A model generated the notes under the pieces. It searched no databases, had not been told where the DNA came from, and was given only the letters and a program-made list of their open reading frames with translations. Positions 12,948 through 45,745 of a stretch of 64,000 nt of DNA are shown in pieces; within the stretch, counting starts at the first letter, position 1; each line of letters starts with the position of its first letter. Made by a program: the position numbers and the translations under genes. Origin of the DNA: Picosynechococcus sp. PCC 7003 (GTDB lineage: Bacteria; Cyanobacteriota; Cyanobacteriia; Cyanobacteriales; MRBY01); the NCBI RefSeq assembly GCF_001693255.1, contig NZ_CP016474.1, positions 1,382,661 through 1,446,660 of the forward strand. The letters run 5' to 3'.

Positions 12948-14231
12948 TTAGGCAACAATGGACAAGGATTCGAGGGCAATGCAGGGGGTATAGCAAGAGC
13001 CTTGCCAGCGGCGATCGCCTCCCACTTCGATGACCTGTTTGAGGGCCTCATAAACATTCCCTGTGACCAGCGTATCCTTAATGCGTCCGGTGATTTGTCC
13101 TTGTCGCACCTGGTAGCCTAGGTCAATATTGACGGAAAAGTCCCCCGAAAGGTCTGCGTCTCCCCCCAAGATTTGATCGACGACAATTGCTGTATCTAAT
13201 TGAGAAATAATTGTGTTAAGTGTGCCCACGCCAGGGGCAACAATCAAATTAGCGAGCTCTGGGGTTGGATAGCGCCCCAAACTGGCCCGAAACCCATTGC
13301 CCGTGGGTCGAATCCCAAGGTTCCGACTTGTTTGGCGATCGCCATAGATATCTTGGGCAAAGCCTTCACGTACCAGGGACAAAGATCGCGTCGGCGTACC
13401 TTCGTCGTCAAAGTGGCAAATGTAAGGTTTGGCGGTGGGGTCTTGGTAGAGGCTGATCTGAGGCGAGATGACCCGTTGACCAAGGGCTTGGCTCCAGGGA
13501 GAAGATTTTTCGAGGATATTTTTCCCATTTAGGGCGGCGGCCACCGTTGACCACAGTAGGGGCGCGGCATTACTGGTAAAAATCACCGGCACTTTGCCCG
13601 TGGTGGCCGGACTATTTTGCTTGGCCCAGTGGAGACGCTCCAACAGCCTTTGCACTGTTGCCTCTGGGTCGAGGGAATCCTGGGTAATATCCCCATCATA
13701 AATGCCTAAAAAGTCATCTCCCCGCACCCATTCAACTTCTAGGCCATAGCTGAGGGAAATATCGGCGGCAGTGCAATAGAGGCCCTCAGAATTAACCAGG
13801 AGCGTATGGCTCGATTCACAGTCAAAAACACCGCTACAGAGAATTTCGGGATAGTGGTCGCGCAGTTGGGCGATCGCCGCTTTGCCTTTCTCCACCAGAG
13901 TTTCCACATCCATGGCGGTACCAATGGGAGGATTGATATCGCGGCGGGGTTCACAGACCTCTAGGGGAGTTGGCTCCTGGAGCTGACTGAGGGCGATCGC
14001 CTTTTCAACCAACAGTTGTGGTGACCCGTGACCATAGGCCACCGCCAGCCCAGGTCGCCCCTGGTACCAAAGTCGCAGCGCCGTACCGATGGACTCGGAC
14101 GTTTCTAGCTGTTTTAGGCGATTCGCCTCAAAGGTGACGGGGTGGGAAACGGAACTTCCCTGATAAACTTCCGCAAACTCGGCTCCTCTCTGGCGTGCCA
14201 GATCCAGGAGCTGCTGGGCAAAATCGCTCAT
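12948..14231 (-). CDS. TldD/PmbA family protein (PmbA-like)
   Basis: A 427-residue protein of the TldD/PmbA (U62) family. In E. coli TldD and PmbA form a heterodimeric protease that matures microcin B17 and degrades CcdA. The N-terminus (QQLLDLARQRGAEFAEVYQG) and LRLWYQGRPGLAVAYG are typical. No HExxxH zinc motif is visible, which fits the non-catalytic PmbA half rather than TldD. In cyanobacteria the natural substrate is unknown. The TldD partner is not in this window. Confidence 0.85.
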   Translation of the reverse strand: MSDFAQQLLDLARQRGAEFAEVYQGSSVSHPVTFEANRLKQLETSESIGTALRLWYQGRPGLAVAYGHGSPQLLVEKAIALSQLQEPTPLEVCEPRRDINPPIGTAMDVETLVEKGKAAIAQLRDHYPEILCSGVFDCESSHTLLVNSEGLYCTAADISLSYGLEVEWVRGDDFLGIYDGDITQDSLDPEATVQRLLERLHWAKQNSPATTGKVPVIFTSNAAPLLWSTVAAALNGKNILEKSSPWSQALGQRVISPQISLYQDPTAKPYICHFDDEGTPTRSLSLVREGFAQDIYGDRQTSRNLGIRPTGNGFRASLGRYPTPELANLIVAPGVGTLNTIISQLDTAIVVDQILGGDADLSGDFSVNIDLGYQVRQGQITGRIKDTLVTGNVYEALKQVIEVGGDRRWQGSCYTPCIALESLSIVA

Positions 14232-34437: not shown

Positions 34438-34836
34438 ATGGGTAAATGGTTCGGGGCGATCGCCTTAGTCTTCGCTTTAATTTTCGGTCTCGGACAAAAC
34501 GCAAGTCTGGCGGCACCTCTGAGCGATGCTCCCGTGGTGGAATGGTTAACCTTTGCCGTTCCCCAGGCCGACCAGGCAAAATTCATCGAAAAGGAACTGG
34601 AAATCTGGAACCCAATTGATCGGCGATCGCCTGCCTTTGTGCGCAAAGAAATCTGGCAAGCTGCTGACCACCCCGATCAGCTTACTGTCGTTGTGTCTTG
34701 GTCGAGCCAAGCCCTACGGAAAGTCGTTTCCCCAGAGGAAGTGGCAGCCGCCGAGAAAGCCTTTGATAAAGCCATGGGCAAAAGTTACCCAATCCTCGAA
34801 AAGAAAGAGTTCTACAATCTTTCTCCTACCAATTGA
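34438..34836 (+). CDS. TIGR03792 family secreted protein
   Basis: A 132-residue protein with a signal peptide (about 1-24, ending near SLAAP). The ABM-like ferredoxin-fold domain that follows (VVEWLTFAVPQADQAKFIEK; VVSWSSQALRKVV) matches the cyanobacterial TIGR03792 set of unknown function. Its conserved pattern resembles antibiotic-biosynthesis-monooxygenase-like domains. It is probably periplasmic. Confidence 0.75.
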   Translation: MGKWFGAIALVFALIFGLGQNASLAAPLSDAPVVEWLTFAVPQADQAKFIEKELEIWNPIDRRSPAFVRKEIWQAADHPDQLTVVVSWSSQALRKVVSPEEVAAAEKAFDKAMGKSYPILEKKEFYNLSPTN

Positions 34837-40869: not shown

Positions 40870-40874
40870 CAAAA
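40870..40874 (+). repeat. Left target-site duplication CAAAA
   Basis: Five bases, CAAAA, directly before the left terminal repeat. The same five bases follow the right repeat at 45741-45745, the length expected for Tn3-family insertion. Confidence 0.9.
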
Positions 40875-40913
40875 GGGGTCATGCCGAGATACGTGTAAAA
40901 AAGTGCAAGTAGA
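40875..40913 (+). repeat. Left terminal inverted repeat (39 bp)
   Basis: Starts GGGGTCATGCCGAGATACG. It is identical in reverse complement to 45702-45740. The similarity resumes further in: 40923-40962 matches the reverse complement of 45653-45692 at 38 of 40 bases. Confidence 0.95.
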
Positions 40914-40947
40914 TTCTAGAAACCTTGCTATGAGTAGGTTTCAGGCA

Positions 40948-41412
40948 CTAATCGACAATTTCCTTATAAGGCGTTCCACAAAGGGGGCAAAAACGATGTC
41001 TGAGAGAGGAGATTGGTTCTTGGCAACTGTGACAACGGGAACGAAGAGGAGAGCCACACTCGAAGCAGAAATGAGCCCGTTGATGCATCCATAGAGGTTC
41101 AGGTGGTGTCCCTGGAGTCCAGCATTGGGGACAAAAGCGGAAAGTAGTAGCATCGCTGATAGCGCCCCCCCGCTGGAGGGAGTCCAAATGCTCAACTGGA
41201 ATTTGAAGAGCATAGGCAAGACCGTTGAGTGTCTTGTCATGGAGCGTGTTGGTTTGGCCACGTTCAATCTTGCCAAGGCTTTGAACATGTATCCGAGCCT
41301 TACTCGCCACGTCCTGTTGGGAAAGACCGAGTAAACGGCGTATCCGCAAAAGATAATGAGCGATGGACTCATCGGAGAGAGGTATTTTTTCAGAATCAGA
41401 AGTAGATGTCAA
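40948..41412 (-). CDS. XRE-family regulator with C-terminal double zinc ribbon
   Basis: A 154-residue protein starting with TTG (no in-frame ATG before the HTH). Residues 17-78 are an XRE/Cro helix-turn-helix (LLGLSQQDVASKARIHVQSLGKIERG). Residues 94-145 hold four CxxC pairs (Cys 94/97, 116/119, 127/130, 142/145), enough for two zinc ribbons. It is encoded divergently from the recombinase, so it likely represses one or both promoters in the 76-bp gap. Its stop codon lies inside the extended terminal repeat. I know of no named Tn3 accessory protein with this build. Confidence 0.85.
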   Translation of the reverse strand: MTSTSDSEKIPLSDESIAHYLLRIRRLLGLSQQDVASKARIHVQSLGKIERGQTNTLHDKTLNGLAYALQIPVEHLDSLQRGGAISDATTFRFCPQCWTPGTPPEPLWMHQRAHFCFECGSPLRSRCHSCQEPISSLRHRFCPLCGTPYKEIVD

Positions 41413-41488
41413 AATATAGAAAAGAGTATGGATTAGAAATATTCTATTCGACTACTTTTTAAATGACCTAGGCCGAGAAAATAAGAGT
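41413..41488. promoter_or_regulatory. Divergent control region and possible resolution site
   Basis: The 76 bp between the XRE gene and the recombinase gene is AT-rich and has a direct repeat AAGAGTATG (near 41425 and 41483). In Tn4430 the internal recombination site sits just upstream of tnpI, so this is the first place to look. CGACTACTT here also occurs near 42388, after the recombinase gene. The crossover core itself cannot be named. Confidence 0.4.
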
Positions 41489-42370
41489 ATGTCTGTCTCC
41501 CTTGCAAAAGTAGCAACCGAGTTTTTAGATCGCCCAGGTCTAGCCCCAAGTACCGTGCGTTCCTACGAATCAACATTACTACCCGTGCTGAAACAATATG
41601 GTCGATGGCCGATAGAGCTATTAGATCGCGAAAGTATTGGTGAGTACCTGAATGACCGAAAAAACCTGAGCTACACCACCCATCATAGACATCAAGCGAT
41701 TTTACAGGCACTATTCAATTTTGCAGTGGAGCAAGGTTATATCCGTGTCAATCCATTGGCGGGTTTGCGCCGCCGTAAGCCCAATCCTGAAAAAGGAGAA
41801 CATCAATCAGATCAGACGATTCATTACTTGACGACAGAACAGCTGACAGTGCTCTACCAACAGCTCAGGTCTGACAATCGTTTGTATACTTTGGTCAAAC
41901 TCCTGCATTGTAGTGGGGCAAGAATTTCCGAAGTACTCGCTTTAGATGAGAGTGATATGGATTGGGGAAGTCAGAAGTTCCAGGTGCTTGGCAAAGGCAA
42001 CAAACAGCGATGGTGTTTTTACAATGATGAAGCCGCTCAACTCCTAGAGAAATATCGCAAGTACTATCGTTTTTCAGGTCACTCTGCTCTATTTACAGCG
42101 AAACAGCCAATGAGCGGTCATGTCACCAGGCTAAGCTATTCGACGGCCTACCACCGCTGGCGAACATTAACGAATCAAAATCCTCTATTGAGGGGGCTCC
42201 GGCTACATGACCTACGACATACCTTTGCCACTGAACGGGTTGGCTTAATGGGGATTGAAGAGTTAAGAGCACTGATGGGCCATGAAAAAATTGAGACCAC
42301 CCTACGCTATCAAAAAGTTACATCTGAGCGCGCTAAATATATAGCAAAAAAAGCATTTCAAAAACTATAG
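41489..42370 (+). CDS. Tyrosine recombinase (TnpI/XerC-like resolvase)
   Basis: A 293-residue integrase-family recombinase. A SAM-like N-terminal domain (about 1-95) precedes the catalytic domain. Catalytic residues visible are Arg145 (SGARISEVL), Lys169/172 (GKGNKQR), His240 and Arg243 (HDLRHTFA), His265 (LMGHEKIETT) and the nucleophile Tyr274 (LRYQKV). Inside a Tn3 element its job is probably to resolve cointegrates, as TnpI does. It ends 152 bp before the transposase start. Confidence 0.92.
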   Translation: MSVSLAKVATEFLDRPGLAPSTVRSYESTLLPVLKQYGRWPIELLDRESIGEYLNDRKNLSYTTHHRHQAILQALFNFAVEQGYIRVNPLAGLRRRKPNPEKGEHQSDQTIHYLTTEQLTVLYQQLRSDNRLYTLVKLLHCSGARISEVLALDESDMDWGSQKFQVLGKGNKQRWCFYNDEAAQLLEKYRKYYRFSGHSALFTAKQPMSGHVTRLSYSTAYHRWRTLTNQNPLLRGLRLHDLRHTFATERVGLMGIEELRALMGHEKIETTLRYQKVTSERAKYIAKKAFQKL

Positions 42371-42522
42371 ATTATTAAATATATGGCGACTACTTAGTAC
42401 TACAGGTTATTCAAGATTTTTATCACTTTGGACCAATTAAGCCATTTGGTTGTGAGTATGGGCTATACTCTGCGGCTGCAAATAATGACATAAAGCGGGC
42501 CAAACAGCCCAGAAGCTTGACA

Positions 42523-45500
42523 ATGACGGTTATTGAGCGAACGGCTTATCCCAAAATCTCCAGGACTCCCAGCACCAAGGAATTGGAGGAACGATACAGA
42601 CCAACGGAGGAGGAGCTCGCTTGGGCTCGCCCCCATGTTCGCACCCAGGCAGGGCTATTGAGCTGGTTGGTAACCCTCAAAATATTCCAAGCAACGCACT
42701 ATTTCCCTGCCCCCAAGGACGTCCCAAAAAGGGTCATCCGATATATTCGCAGCCATCTCAAACTCCCAGCATCCCTTTCCGGAATGCCAGCCAAGCGTTC
42801 CTGGCGGTTGTATCAAGAACAGATCCGGGGTCACCTAAATATTGTTTCTTATCGTCCCCAGGGGGAGCAATTAGCAATAACGGTAGTTGAAAAGCTTGCT
42901 CTCATTCGGGATGACCCAGCAGATTTAATCAATGGAGCTTTGGAGGAGTTGAGTGAGCGAGGCTTTGAGCTGCCGGCTTTTAGTACCCTTGACCGTTTGG
43001 TGCGTCATGTCCGTGCGGCAACGAATCAGAAGCTTTGGGAGCAGCTCGCCGATAGCCTCAGCGCTGATGATTGTGCCTATTTGGATCGCTTGATTCATAC
43101 TGAAGAGGCGACAGACGAAGCAATGGAAAATCAAGACCCTCAAGGGGATACTCCCGAGAAGTTGCCAGTCACCCTAAATCTTCTCAAAGCTTCACCCAAA
43201 CGTCCTTCCCTTTCCCATCTATGGGAACTTCAAAACACCTTGGAGCGCCTCATGGGTTTCGGGGATGCTCAGGAAAAACTCAAGGATATTGCCCCGGCCA
43301 AGGCGAAGGCGTTCGCTGCCCAAGCCAGAGCCCTCGATGCCGGGGAATTCAAGGATATGCGACTGCCGAAACGGCGCTCCTTGTTGCTATGTCTACTCCA
43401 CCGTGCTCAGGTTAAGACCCGCGACCATTTGGCTGATATGTTTGTGCAGCGTATGGGCAAAATTCATAACGCTGCCAAGCAGAGATTACTTGAGTTACGG
43501 GAACAACATCTCAGGCAAACGGAAATAATGTTGGGCATCTTTGCTGAAGTCTTGGCGGAATCAGCCGACAACGCTGAAGACGAAGCCCAATTAGGCAAAG
43601 CCGTGCAAGCTATATTAAATACCCATGGCGGCACCACCAATTTGCTGACCCAATGCAAGGAGCTCACAACTTACAACACCAATAATCATCTGCCCTTGGC
43701 CTGGCAGTTTTATTCACGGCACCGTAAAGCGATGTTTGATTTATTGCGTCTGTTAGAGCTCCGCCCAACTTCAGCAGAACAATCGCTGTTCACTGCCTTA
43801 GAATTTCTCCAAACCTATGAAGATAAGCGTGCCGCCTATCTTCCTGCTGAGTTAGAGCTGAACTTCATCAGCGAGAATTGGCGTAAATTGGTGGTTGTGG
43901 AACGGGACGAGGAAACCGTTTTAGTGCGACAGCAACTGGAGGTTTGTCTGTTCAGCTATCTGGCCACCGAGCTCAAAACCGGCGATATCTGTGTCATGGG
44001 GTCAGAATCCTATGCTGATTTCCGCGAACAGCTCCTCCCTTGGGAAGAATGCCAAAATTTGTTGGCGGAATACTCTCAAGAAACGGGTATCCCCAATACT
44101 GCTGAAGCCTTTGTCGAACAGCTCAAAAGTCAGCTCAGCCAGGTGGCAGCAGCGGTGGATACCATTTGCAAAGATGGTACCCAGGTGACGATCTCTAAAG
44201 AGGGGAAACCAGTGCTCAAGCGGCTGAAGGCGGCACCCAGCTCCCCATCAGCACTGCGGCTGGAGCATACCATCCATCAGCGTCTGCCAGAGCGCTCAGT
44301 TCTTGATATTCTCTGCAATGTGCAGCACTGGGTTAATTGGACGCGCCATTTTGGCCCCCTGTCCGGGTCAGAGCCTAAGCTAGATGAGCCAGTTGAACGC
44401 TATATTTTCACCACTTTTGGCTATGGGTGTAATCTTGGCCCCAATGAAACTGCTCGCCATACCCGAGGCTTGCTCTCGGCCCATCAGCTCTCCTACATTC
44501 ATTCGCGACATATCAGTACTGAAAAAATTGAGGATGCCATTCGCGATATCATCCAAGCTTACTCCCAGTTGAAGTTGCCCAATTGTTGGGGCACTGGCAA
44601 ACGAGCTGCGGCGGATGGCAGCAAGTTTGAGGTCTACGATAATAATCTGATGGCGGAGTATCATCTACGCTACAAAGGCTATGGGGGCATTGCCTATCAC
44701 CATGTCTGTGACAATTACATTGCCCTGTTCACTCATTTCATCAGTTGTGGCGTCTGGGAAGCGGTCTATATCCTGGATGGCTTGCTCAAAAATACTTCGG
44801 CTCTTCAACCTGATACCCTCCATGCCGATACCCAAGGGCAATCGACTCCCGTCTTTGCCCTGGCCCATTTATTAGGCATTGAACTCATGCCCCGTATTCG
44901 CTCTTGGCAAGACTACAGCTTCTTTCGACCGGATAGTGAGGTGGTTTACGACTACATTGACCCATTGTTCACCGATGTTGCTCAATGGGGGCTAATCCAA
45001 ACCCATTGGCAGGATCTCATGCGTGTTGTACTATCGATCCGTGCGGGCAAATTAATGCCTTCCACCATCCTGAGGAAGTTAGGTAGTTACAGCCGCAAAA
45101 ACCGCCTGTATCAAGCTTTTAAGGCCCTTGGGCAAGTCATTCGCACTCTGTTTCTACTGCGCTATATCTCTGAGCGTCACCTCAGACGACAGATTAATGA
45201 CTGTACTAACAAGGTGGAATCTTTTCACCGGTTTCTTGATTGGCTTTTCTTTGGCAAGGAAGGGGTCATTACAGAAAATGATGCTGATGCCCAGGAAAAA
45301 CAACTCAAATATCTCGAATTAGTCTCTGCTGCTGTCATTCTGCATAATGCCGTTGATATCTCACAGGTCATTCGGGAGCTCTGTACCCAGGGTTATACCG
45401 TCACACCCGAAGATGTGGCCATTATGAGTCCTTATCTCACCAAGAATCTACGACGCTATGGTGACTTTGTGGCTGATCTCGGGCAAACTCCACCGGCACT

Positions 45501-45552
45501 TGAAGAGGCTTTTTCTCTTCCGTTTATTATTCCTGATGACTTTGCTCTGTAA
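42523..45552 (+). CDS. tnpA: Tn3-family transposase
   Basis: 1009 residues from the ATG at 42523; a TTG two codons upstream is possible. The length is the usual 960-1010. The N-terminal DUF4158-like DNA-binding region (PTEEELAWARPHVRTQ) precedes a DDE domain with Asp698 (AAADGSKFEVY), Asp769 (HADTQGQSTPVFALAHLLG) and Glu899 (NKVESFHRFLDWLFFG). It catalyses replicative transposition by binding the 38-39 bp ends. The frame is intact. Confidence 0.96.
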   Translation: MTVIERTAYPKISRTPSTKELEERYRPTEEELAWARPHVRTQAGLLSWLVTLKIFQATHYFPAPKDVPKRVIRYIRSHLKLPASLSGMPAKRSWRLYQEQIRGHLNIVSYRPQGEQLAITVVEKLALIRDDPADLINGALEELSERGFELPAFSTLDRLVRHVRAATNQKLWEQLADSLSADDCAYLDRLIHTEEATDEAMENQDPQGDTPEKLPVTLNLLKASPKRPSLSHLWELQNTLERLMGFGDAQEKLKDIAPAKAKAFAAQARALDAGEFKDMRLPKRRSLLLCLLHRAQVKTRDHLADMFVQRMGKIHNAAKQRLLELREQHLRQTEIMLGIFAEVLAESADNAEDEAQLGKAVQAILNTHGGTTNLLTQCKELTTYNTNNHLPLAWQFYSRHRKAMFDLLRLLELRPTSAEQSLFTALEFLQTYEDKRAAYLPAELELNFISENWRKLVVVERDEETVLVRQQLEVCLFSYLATELKTGDICVMGSESYADFREQLLPWEECQNLLAEYSQETGIPNTAEAFVEQLKSQLSQVAAAVDTICKDGTQVTISKEGKPVLKRLKAAPSSPSALRLEHTIHQRLPERSVLDILCNVQHWVNWTRHFGPLSGSEPKLDEPVERYIFTTFGYGCNLGPNETARHTRGLLSAHQLSYIHSRHISTEKIEDAIRDIIQAYSQLKLPNCWGTGKRAAADGSKFEVYDNNLMAEYHLRYKGYGGIAYHHVCDNYIALFTHFISCGVWEAVYILDGLLKNTSALQPDTLHADTQGQSTPVFALAHLLGIELMPRIRSWQDYSFFRPDSEVVYDYIDPLFTDVAQWGLIQTHWQDLMRVVLSIRAGKLMPSTILRKLGSYSRKNRLYQAFKALGQVIRTLFLLRYISERHLRRQINDCTNKVESFHRFLDWLFFGKEGVITENDADAQEKQLKYLELVSAAVILHNAVDISQVIRELCTQGYTVTPEDVAIMSPYLTKNLRRYGDFVADLGQTPPALEEAFSLPFIIPDDFAL

Positions 45553-45581
45553 GCATTTCAGCATCTAGGGAAACTTTTATC

Positions 45582-45594
45582 CGTATCTCGGCAT
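45582..45594 (+). repeat. Internal fragment of the terminal repeat
   Basis: CGTATCTCGGCAT, 13 bases identical to part of the right terminal repeat and in the same orientation, but 125 bp inside it and ending in AGC instead of GACCCC. It looks like the remains of an older right end. Confidence 0.75.
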
Positions 45595-45607
45595 AGCTTG
45601 ATTCTTA

Positions 45608-45667
45608 TCTGTGAAACATCGATTTTGTCCCCTCTATAGAACACCTCATCAAGAAATTGTCGATTAG
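45608..45667 (+). pseudogene. Remnant of the 3' end of an XRE/zinc-ribbon gene
   Basis: In frame it reads SVKHRFCPLYRTPHQEIVD and stop. The intact XRE gene of this transposon ends SLRHRFCPLCGTPYKEIVD and stop: the same 19-residue tail with six changes. The last Cys of the final CxxC is lost (CPLY). A TGA lies three codons upstream. It is oriented toward the right end exactly as the intact gene points toward the left end. Confidence 0.85.
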
Positions 45668-45701
45668 TGCCTGAAACCTACTTGTAGCAAGGGTTATAAA
45701 C

Positions 45702-45740
45702 TCTACTTGCACTTTTTTACACGTATCTCGGCATGACCCC
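45702..45740 (-). repeat. Right terminal inverted repeat (39 bp)
   Basis: Perfect reverse complement of 40875-40913. It marks the outer end of the transposon and is followed by the duplicated CAAAA. Confidence 0.95.
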
Positions 45741-45745
45741 CAAAA
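45741..45745 (+). repeat. Right target-site duplication CAAAA
   Basis: Second copy of the 5-bp target sequence. It overlaps the A run that serves as the U tract of the sat terminator on the minus strand. Confidence 0.9.

Follow-up and report, generated by a model that had tools for sequence, protein, structure and literature searches.

Introduction

The two ends of a Tn3 transposon are nearly identical even though they lie kilobases apart, and the replacement of a damaged end is seldom seen. An element from the cyanobacterium Picosynechococcus sp. PCC 7003 raises the question of how such a replacement can come about. It occupies 40875-45740 of the window (the whole stretch of 64,000 nucleotides analysed here), and its right end is an inverted copy of its own type of left end, lying just outside a decayed older right end. 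Old end, captured end and the joint between them can all still be read in this copy, which has moved again since the capture. As a clear fossil it makes end replacement in Tn3 elements concrete and open to testing, and it draws attention to a cyanobacterial branch with the gene order xre-tnpI-tnpA and terminal repeats of about 75 bp.

Structure of the element and its insertion site

The element is complete and autonomous, with the gene order xre/zinc-ribbon, tnpI, tnpA. At its left end a 39 bp terminal inverted repeat, GGGGTCATGCCGAGATACGTGTAAAAAAGTGCAAGTAGA (40875-40913, plus strand), is followed by a second stretch of terminal repeat that is found family-wide and here reaches as far as the xre stop codon (40914-40950, plus strand). 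The intact xre gene (40948-41412, minus strand) encodes a protein of 154 aa with a helix-turn-helix and a double zinc ribbon, and its 3' end represents the type of sequence from which the captured tail came. Divergent from xre lies tnpI (41489-42370, plus strand), coding for a tyrosine recombinase of 293 aa that is presumed to be the resolvase, and beside it tnpA (42517-45552, plus strand), coding for a transposase of 1011 aa. Beyond tnpA come the decayed original right end (45553-45600, plus strand), the captured 3' end of xre with its own stop codon at the end (45601-45667, plus strand), the inner part of the captured left-end repeat (45668-45701, plus strand) and finally the present right terminal inverted repeat of 39 bp (45702-45740, minus strand), which is identical to the left.

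The 5 bp sequence CAAAA is duplicated on the two sides of the element (40870-40874 and 45741-45745) in A+T-rich DNA, and two congeners have the A-rich site without the element. The transposon therefore entered this site as a single unit, bounded by the ends that it has now, and since the captured end is one of the two that made this insertion, the capture predates it. Its neighbours, named from the translations of their open reading frames, are a gyrB-like gene on one side and a sulfate adenylyltransferase-like gene on the other.

The transposase matches the full length of the PF01526 model (E 3e-145), scores above the cut-off of NF033527 and resembles the TnpA of Tn4430, for which a structure has been solved (E 1.5e-66). 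Both the terminal repeats and the target duplication are those of the Tn3 family, in which repeats are 38-40 bp or longer (PMC7157771) and the terminal repeat with its boxes is the binding site of TnpA (PMC9579193). The tyrosine recombinase gene beside tnpA, with both genes on the plus strand, places the element in the TnpI group; among 190 curated Tn3 members, TnpI is found only in Tn4430, Tn5401 and TnBth4 (PMC7157771). With these three the element shares a DDE transposase of about 1000 aa, repeats of 38-40 bp that start with GGGG, a 5 bp duplication and a tyrosine recombinase as presumed resolvase. Unlike them, it belongs to a cyanobacterial branch whose members have a divergent xre/zinc-ribbon gene on the left and a longer terminal repeat made of two parts, about 75 bp in all; in this copy, moreover, a captured left end serves as the right end. 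The combination of a tyrosine recombinase with a small, divergently transcribed partner toward the left end is also seen in the Tn4651 group, with its TnpS and TnpT (PMC7157771), but the partner here is a helix-turn-helix/zinc-ribbon protein. The element itself is not new in kind; it is a known type of Tn3 transposon with a replaced end.

In Tn5401 the repeats bound by TnpI precede tnpI, and further copies lie close to the ends. When the inner repeat was compared with the xre-tnpI spacer in 10 elements of the present family, no similarity emerged, and the idea that the inner repeat is a copy of a TnpI site from this spacer is unsupported. All that was found there is a 9 bp direct repeat, AAGAGTATG, at 41422-41430 and 41483-41491, a candidate for part of the resolution site.

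The captured left end

The original prediction held that the right end of the transposon is a copy of its left end and that the inverted similarity continues past the 39 bp repeat. Indeed, 40875-41012 and 45603-45740 form an inverted repeat of 138 nt with 86% identity (blastn E about 1e-40) that extends about 65 bp into the 3' end of xre, and 45653-45692 agrees with 40923-40962 at 38 of 40 positions, as had been stated. Identity along the repeat is uneven, being complete in the outer part (39/39 at 45702-45740), lower in the inner repeat (28/34 at 45668-45701), complete again at the end of the xre frame (15/15 at 45653-45667) and lowest in the remainder of the xre part (37/52 at 45601-45652). 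The segment at 45608-45667, which had been read as a diverged xre tail, translates as SVKHRFCPLYRTPHQEIVD-stop where the intact gene has SLRHRFCPLCGTPYKEIVD-stop. It had been allowed that this peptide similarity might vanish in a proper alignment; it did not, since tblastn aligns the two at 68% over 19 aa, with a score reached by none of 1000 shuffles.

The last zinc ribbon contains CPxCG in all relatives but reads CPLYR in the captured copy, so that a zinc ligand has been lost and the ribbon is broken; the captured tail has thus decayed since it was captured. At one codon the captured copy has kept the Lys of the family (LKHR in most relatives), whereas the intact xre has Arg. Both copies have therefore changed.

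Ends and spacing across the family

Relatives of the transposase at 52-62% identity are widespread in cyanobacteria, and many of them have the order xre, tnpI, tnpA. Their terminal repeats, at about 42-92 bp, go beyond the usual 39 and extend inwards as far as a stop codon at either end, that of xre on the left and that of tnpA on the right. Repeats of this length, which come right up to xre, would accord with an ancestral design in which the whole family carries an xre tail at both ends, and such a design had been named at the outset as the finding that would overturn the capture. However, in 28 other elements the agreement between the two ends is at background beyond 75 bp (with maxima of 0.60 for 76-110 bp and 0.55 for 111-140 bp), compared with 0.80 and 0.73 in the window's element, and in 11 further elements the repeats measure 42-84 bp and end before xre. 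Across 39 other family elements compared at both ends, the right end always lacks an xre tail. The tail is thus particular to the window's element, and an ancestral design is scarcely credible.

Relatives also bear on where the right end used to be. The prediction of an original right end near 45600 drew on a 13 bp piece of the terminal repeat, CGTATCTCGGCAT, at 45582-45594. This piece is exact and belongs to a match of 18/20 at 45575-45594, which is oriented like the present right end and was equalled in none of 400 shuffles of the 120 bp past the tnpA stop. It puts the predicted old tip at 45600, 48 bp past that stop, with the outermost six bases of the old repeat decayed from GACCCC to AGCTTG. 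In 12 of 19 relatives the right tip lies 59 bp beyond the tnpA stop, in 18 of them the spacing is within 50-76 bp, and elements from a further set agree (mostly 50-77 bp) with the exception of L187 (about 125 bp). The proposed location has thus held up well.

Could 45575-45594 instead be a sub-terminal site for binding, or resemble the repeat by chance, in an element whose right end has always been at 45740? A longer spacer does occur: the right end lies 121-126 bp past the stop in the nearest tnpA relatives, L161 (placed by a tree) and L187, in which there is no inner relic, and 121-138 bp past it in elements of the Acaryochloris type. The quality and correct orientation of the match, which shuffled sequence does not attain, nevertheless speak against this explanation, as does its position at the family's usual place with the outer six bases decayed, and we consider it very improbable. 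The spacing of 138 bp in L007 and L134 was considered as a second case of capture and rejected, as by alignment the spacer is not xre.

How the two ends were joined

Homology to the left end, within xre, starts at 45603 or 45601 (maximum likelihood), and the interval 45598-45604 holds 65% of the posterior. The old tip and the captured sequence would accordingly touch, with the joint at the old tip, although this coincidence is suggestive only because the boundary of the xre homology is uncertain by several bases. A joint at the old tip is what strand transfer into xre, within an inverted left end, would produce, and it speaks for the transposase rather than for a random deletion or a copying accident, as a deletion or a template switch might end at any point; the argument draws on a single joint, placed to within a few bases.

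On balance, the locus is probably a TnpI-type Tn3 element whose original right end, at 45600, was superseded by an inverted left end just outside it, joined via the transposase. The transposase of the element would have linked it, or its right end alone, to an xre gene within an inverted left end, which may have been a sister copy's or its own, and strand transfer would have left the xre tail and the left terminal repeat directly beyond the old right tip. During a later transposition the outer repeat would have served as the right end, so that the composite unit moved, after which the old end, now lying inside, would have decayed together with the captured part of xre.

Further considerations count against this sequence of events. 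The spacing in the immediate ancestors is not certain, given the longer distance in the nearest tnpA relatives. Moreover, Tn3 target immunity should hinder insertion into a copy that carries the same repeat, and the two present terminal repeats are identical. Insertion of one family member into another is nonetheless realistic despite target immunity, at least where the repeats differ, as several arrangements attest. The left tip of L068 (1769) abuts exactly the reading frame of another member's tnpA (L068 219-1769) and pieces of tnpA flank L007 on both sides, these two elements being nested in or abutting the tnpA of other members without a matching target duplication, while L187 has a weak repeat-like sequence just beyond its right tip (9/2000 shuffles).

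Exactly the same final structure would be produced by an illegitimate deletion between inverted copies lying side by side (right end to right end, or overlapping), in which everything from the first right tip to the second xre tail was lost, the joint was formed without transposase and the inverted left end became the new right end. Nested members and inverted repeats are common in the xre-tnpI-tnpA family, which speaks for this route. A deletion is not required to stop at the old tip, however, and yet the joint lies within a few bases of 45600, so this route appears unlikely, if worth keeping in mind.

The uneven identity of the two ends invites a further explanation, a copying accident within one element, whereby, in the course of replication or of break repair, the right end was extended on the element's own inverted left end as template and ran on past the terminal repeat as far as xre. 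Such an event would amount to a gross version of whatever process keeps both ends alike. The inner repeats of one element are often closer to each other than to those of any other element (0.95 vs 0.69 in L007 and 0.78 vs 0.63 in L067), and around the xre stop of the window's element 30/30 bases are identical between the ends compared with only 71% in the xre tail. Against this, in many elements the inner-repeat identity between the own ends is not above that to the nearest other element. Furthermore, had copying begun in the repeat, the old repeat would not be left on the inner side, pointing the same way and with xre at its tip; an extra joining would be needed. We find a copying accident distinctly doubtful and continue to prefer joining by the transposase.

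Mosaic elements and one-ended products are known in the Tn3 family (PMC4133298). Like one-ended products and TIMEs, the element illustrates ends that recombine or occur apart from the transposase genes, and mosaics made from two ends (PMC4133298); unlike them it is an autonomous element with one end swapped for the inverted other and the decayed original inside. That the captured piece is itself a TIME, a Tn3-derived miniature element in which inverted repeats enclose a core lacking a transposase gene, was rejected, as the inner relic stands in direct and not inverted orientation to the present right repeat, and the element is autonomous. A search of the open-access literature turned up no report of an autonomous Tn3 element that had captured its opposite end. 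It is conceivable, though improbable, that end capture by transposition into an inverted copy is a regular way for Tn3 elements to keep their ends alike. If so, an inverted copy of one end would occasionally take the place of the whole of the other, and the window's element would have been caught before loss of the surplus sequence.

The donor and a second family member

It had further been proposed that the replacement came from the inverted left end of a related element, implying that a second, diverged family member once lived in this lineage. The first proposal stands as regards the inverted left end, of which a diverged sister is a possible donor. The xre tails differ by 29%, partly through decay after capture, and because both copies have changed, their divergence cannot separate a sister from the element itself.

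The second proposal receives modest independent support from plasmid contig C2 (34.7 kb) of the same genome, where a solo left-type end at 34507-34550 is identical to the left end over 44 bp, suggesting that a second family member probably lived in this genome. The solo end continues into sequence with weak similarity to the xre tail (3/500 DNA shuffles; 61/1000 protein shuffles, which is weak). It was rejected as the direct donor, since past the first 44-50 bp it is far less like the captured piece than is the element's own left end. At C2 34493-34550 (in L054) an inverted fragment of this repeat, ACGTATCTCGG, is found directly before the solo end, the two ends standing tip to tip with three bases between them.

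A closer relative or donor was sought in the element's own genome, in the genus, in 389 genomes of the order and in about 387 each of the class and the phylum, as well as in GTDB contigs, plasmids and viral contigs. Over this range no tnpA had a full-length identity above about 62% and the captured joint had no second copy; no close relative (above 65% in tnpA) was found in either the ancestral or the captured state, which also counts against the preferred sequence of events.

Traces of the family elsewhere

Divergent pairs of an xre/zinc-ribbon gene and a tyrosine-recombinase gene also occur without tnpA on Picosynechococcus plasmids, including pAQ7 of PCC 7002 and others (L056 5967-7455, L057 5967-7455 and L058 5994-7455), and on contig C3 of the window's genome (L096 1504-2947). 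Such a pair may be a free-standing plasmid resolution module. On plasmid pSYSM of Synechocystis PCC 6803, which has no transposase gene to accompany it, there is a terminal repeat standing alone, of the CGGCATGACCCC type that the window's element also has (14049-14081, corresponding to L132 6050-6082).

Inverted-repeat pairs of the xre-tnpI-tnpA family, 230-420 bp apart, are present in cyanobacteria and look like TIMEs (L141 4182-4593, L119 1493-1909, L104 1303-1532, L112 1302-1532 and L133 4661-5054). On pREC2 of Acaryochloris marina (L134 1531-5035), an xre gene split between two frames is followed by hydrolase, dehydrogenase and TetR genes, then by the 3' part of a tnpA gene and a right repeat; the locus is possibly a family member whose core has been swapped for passenger genes.
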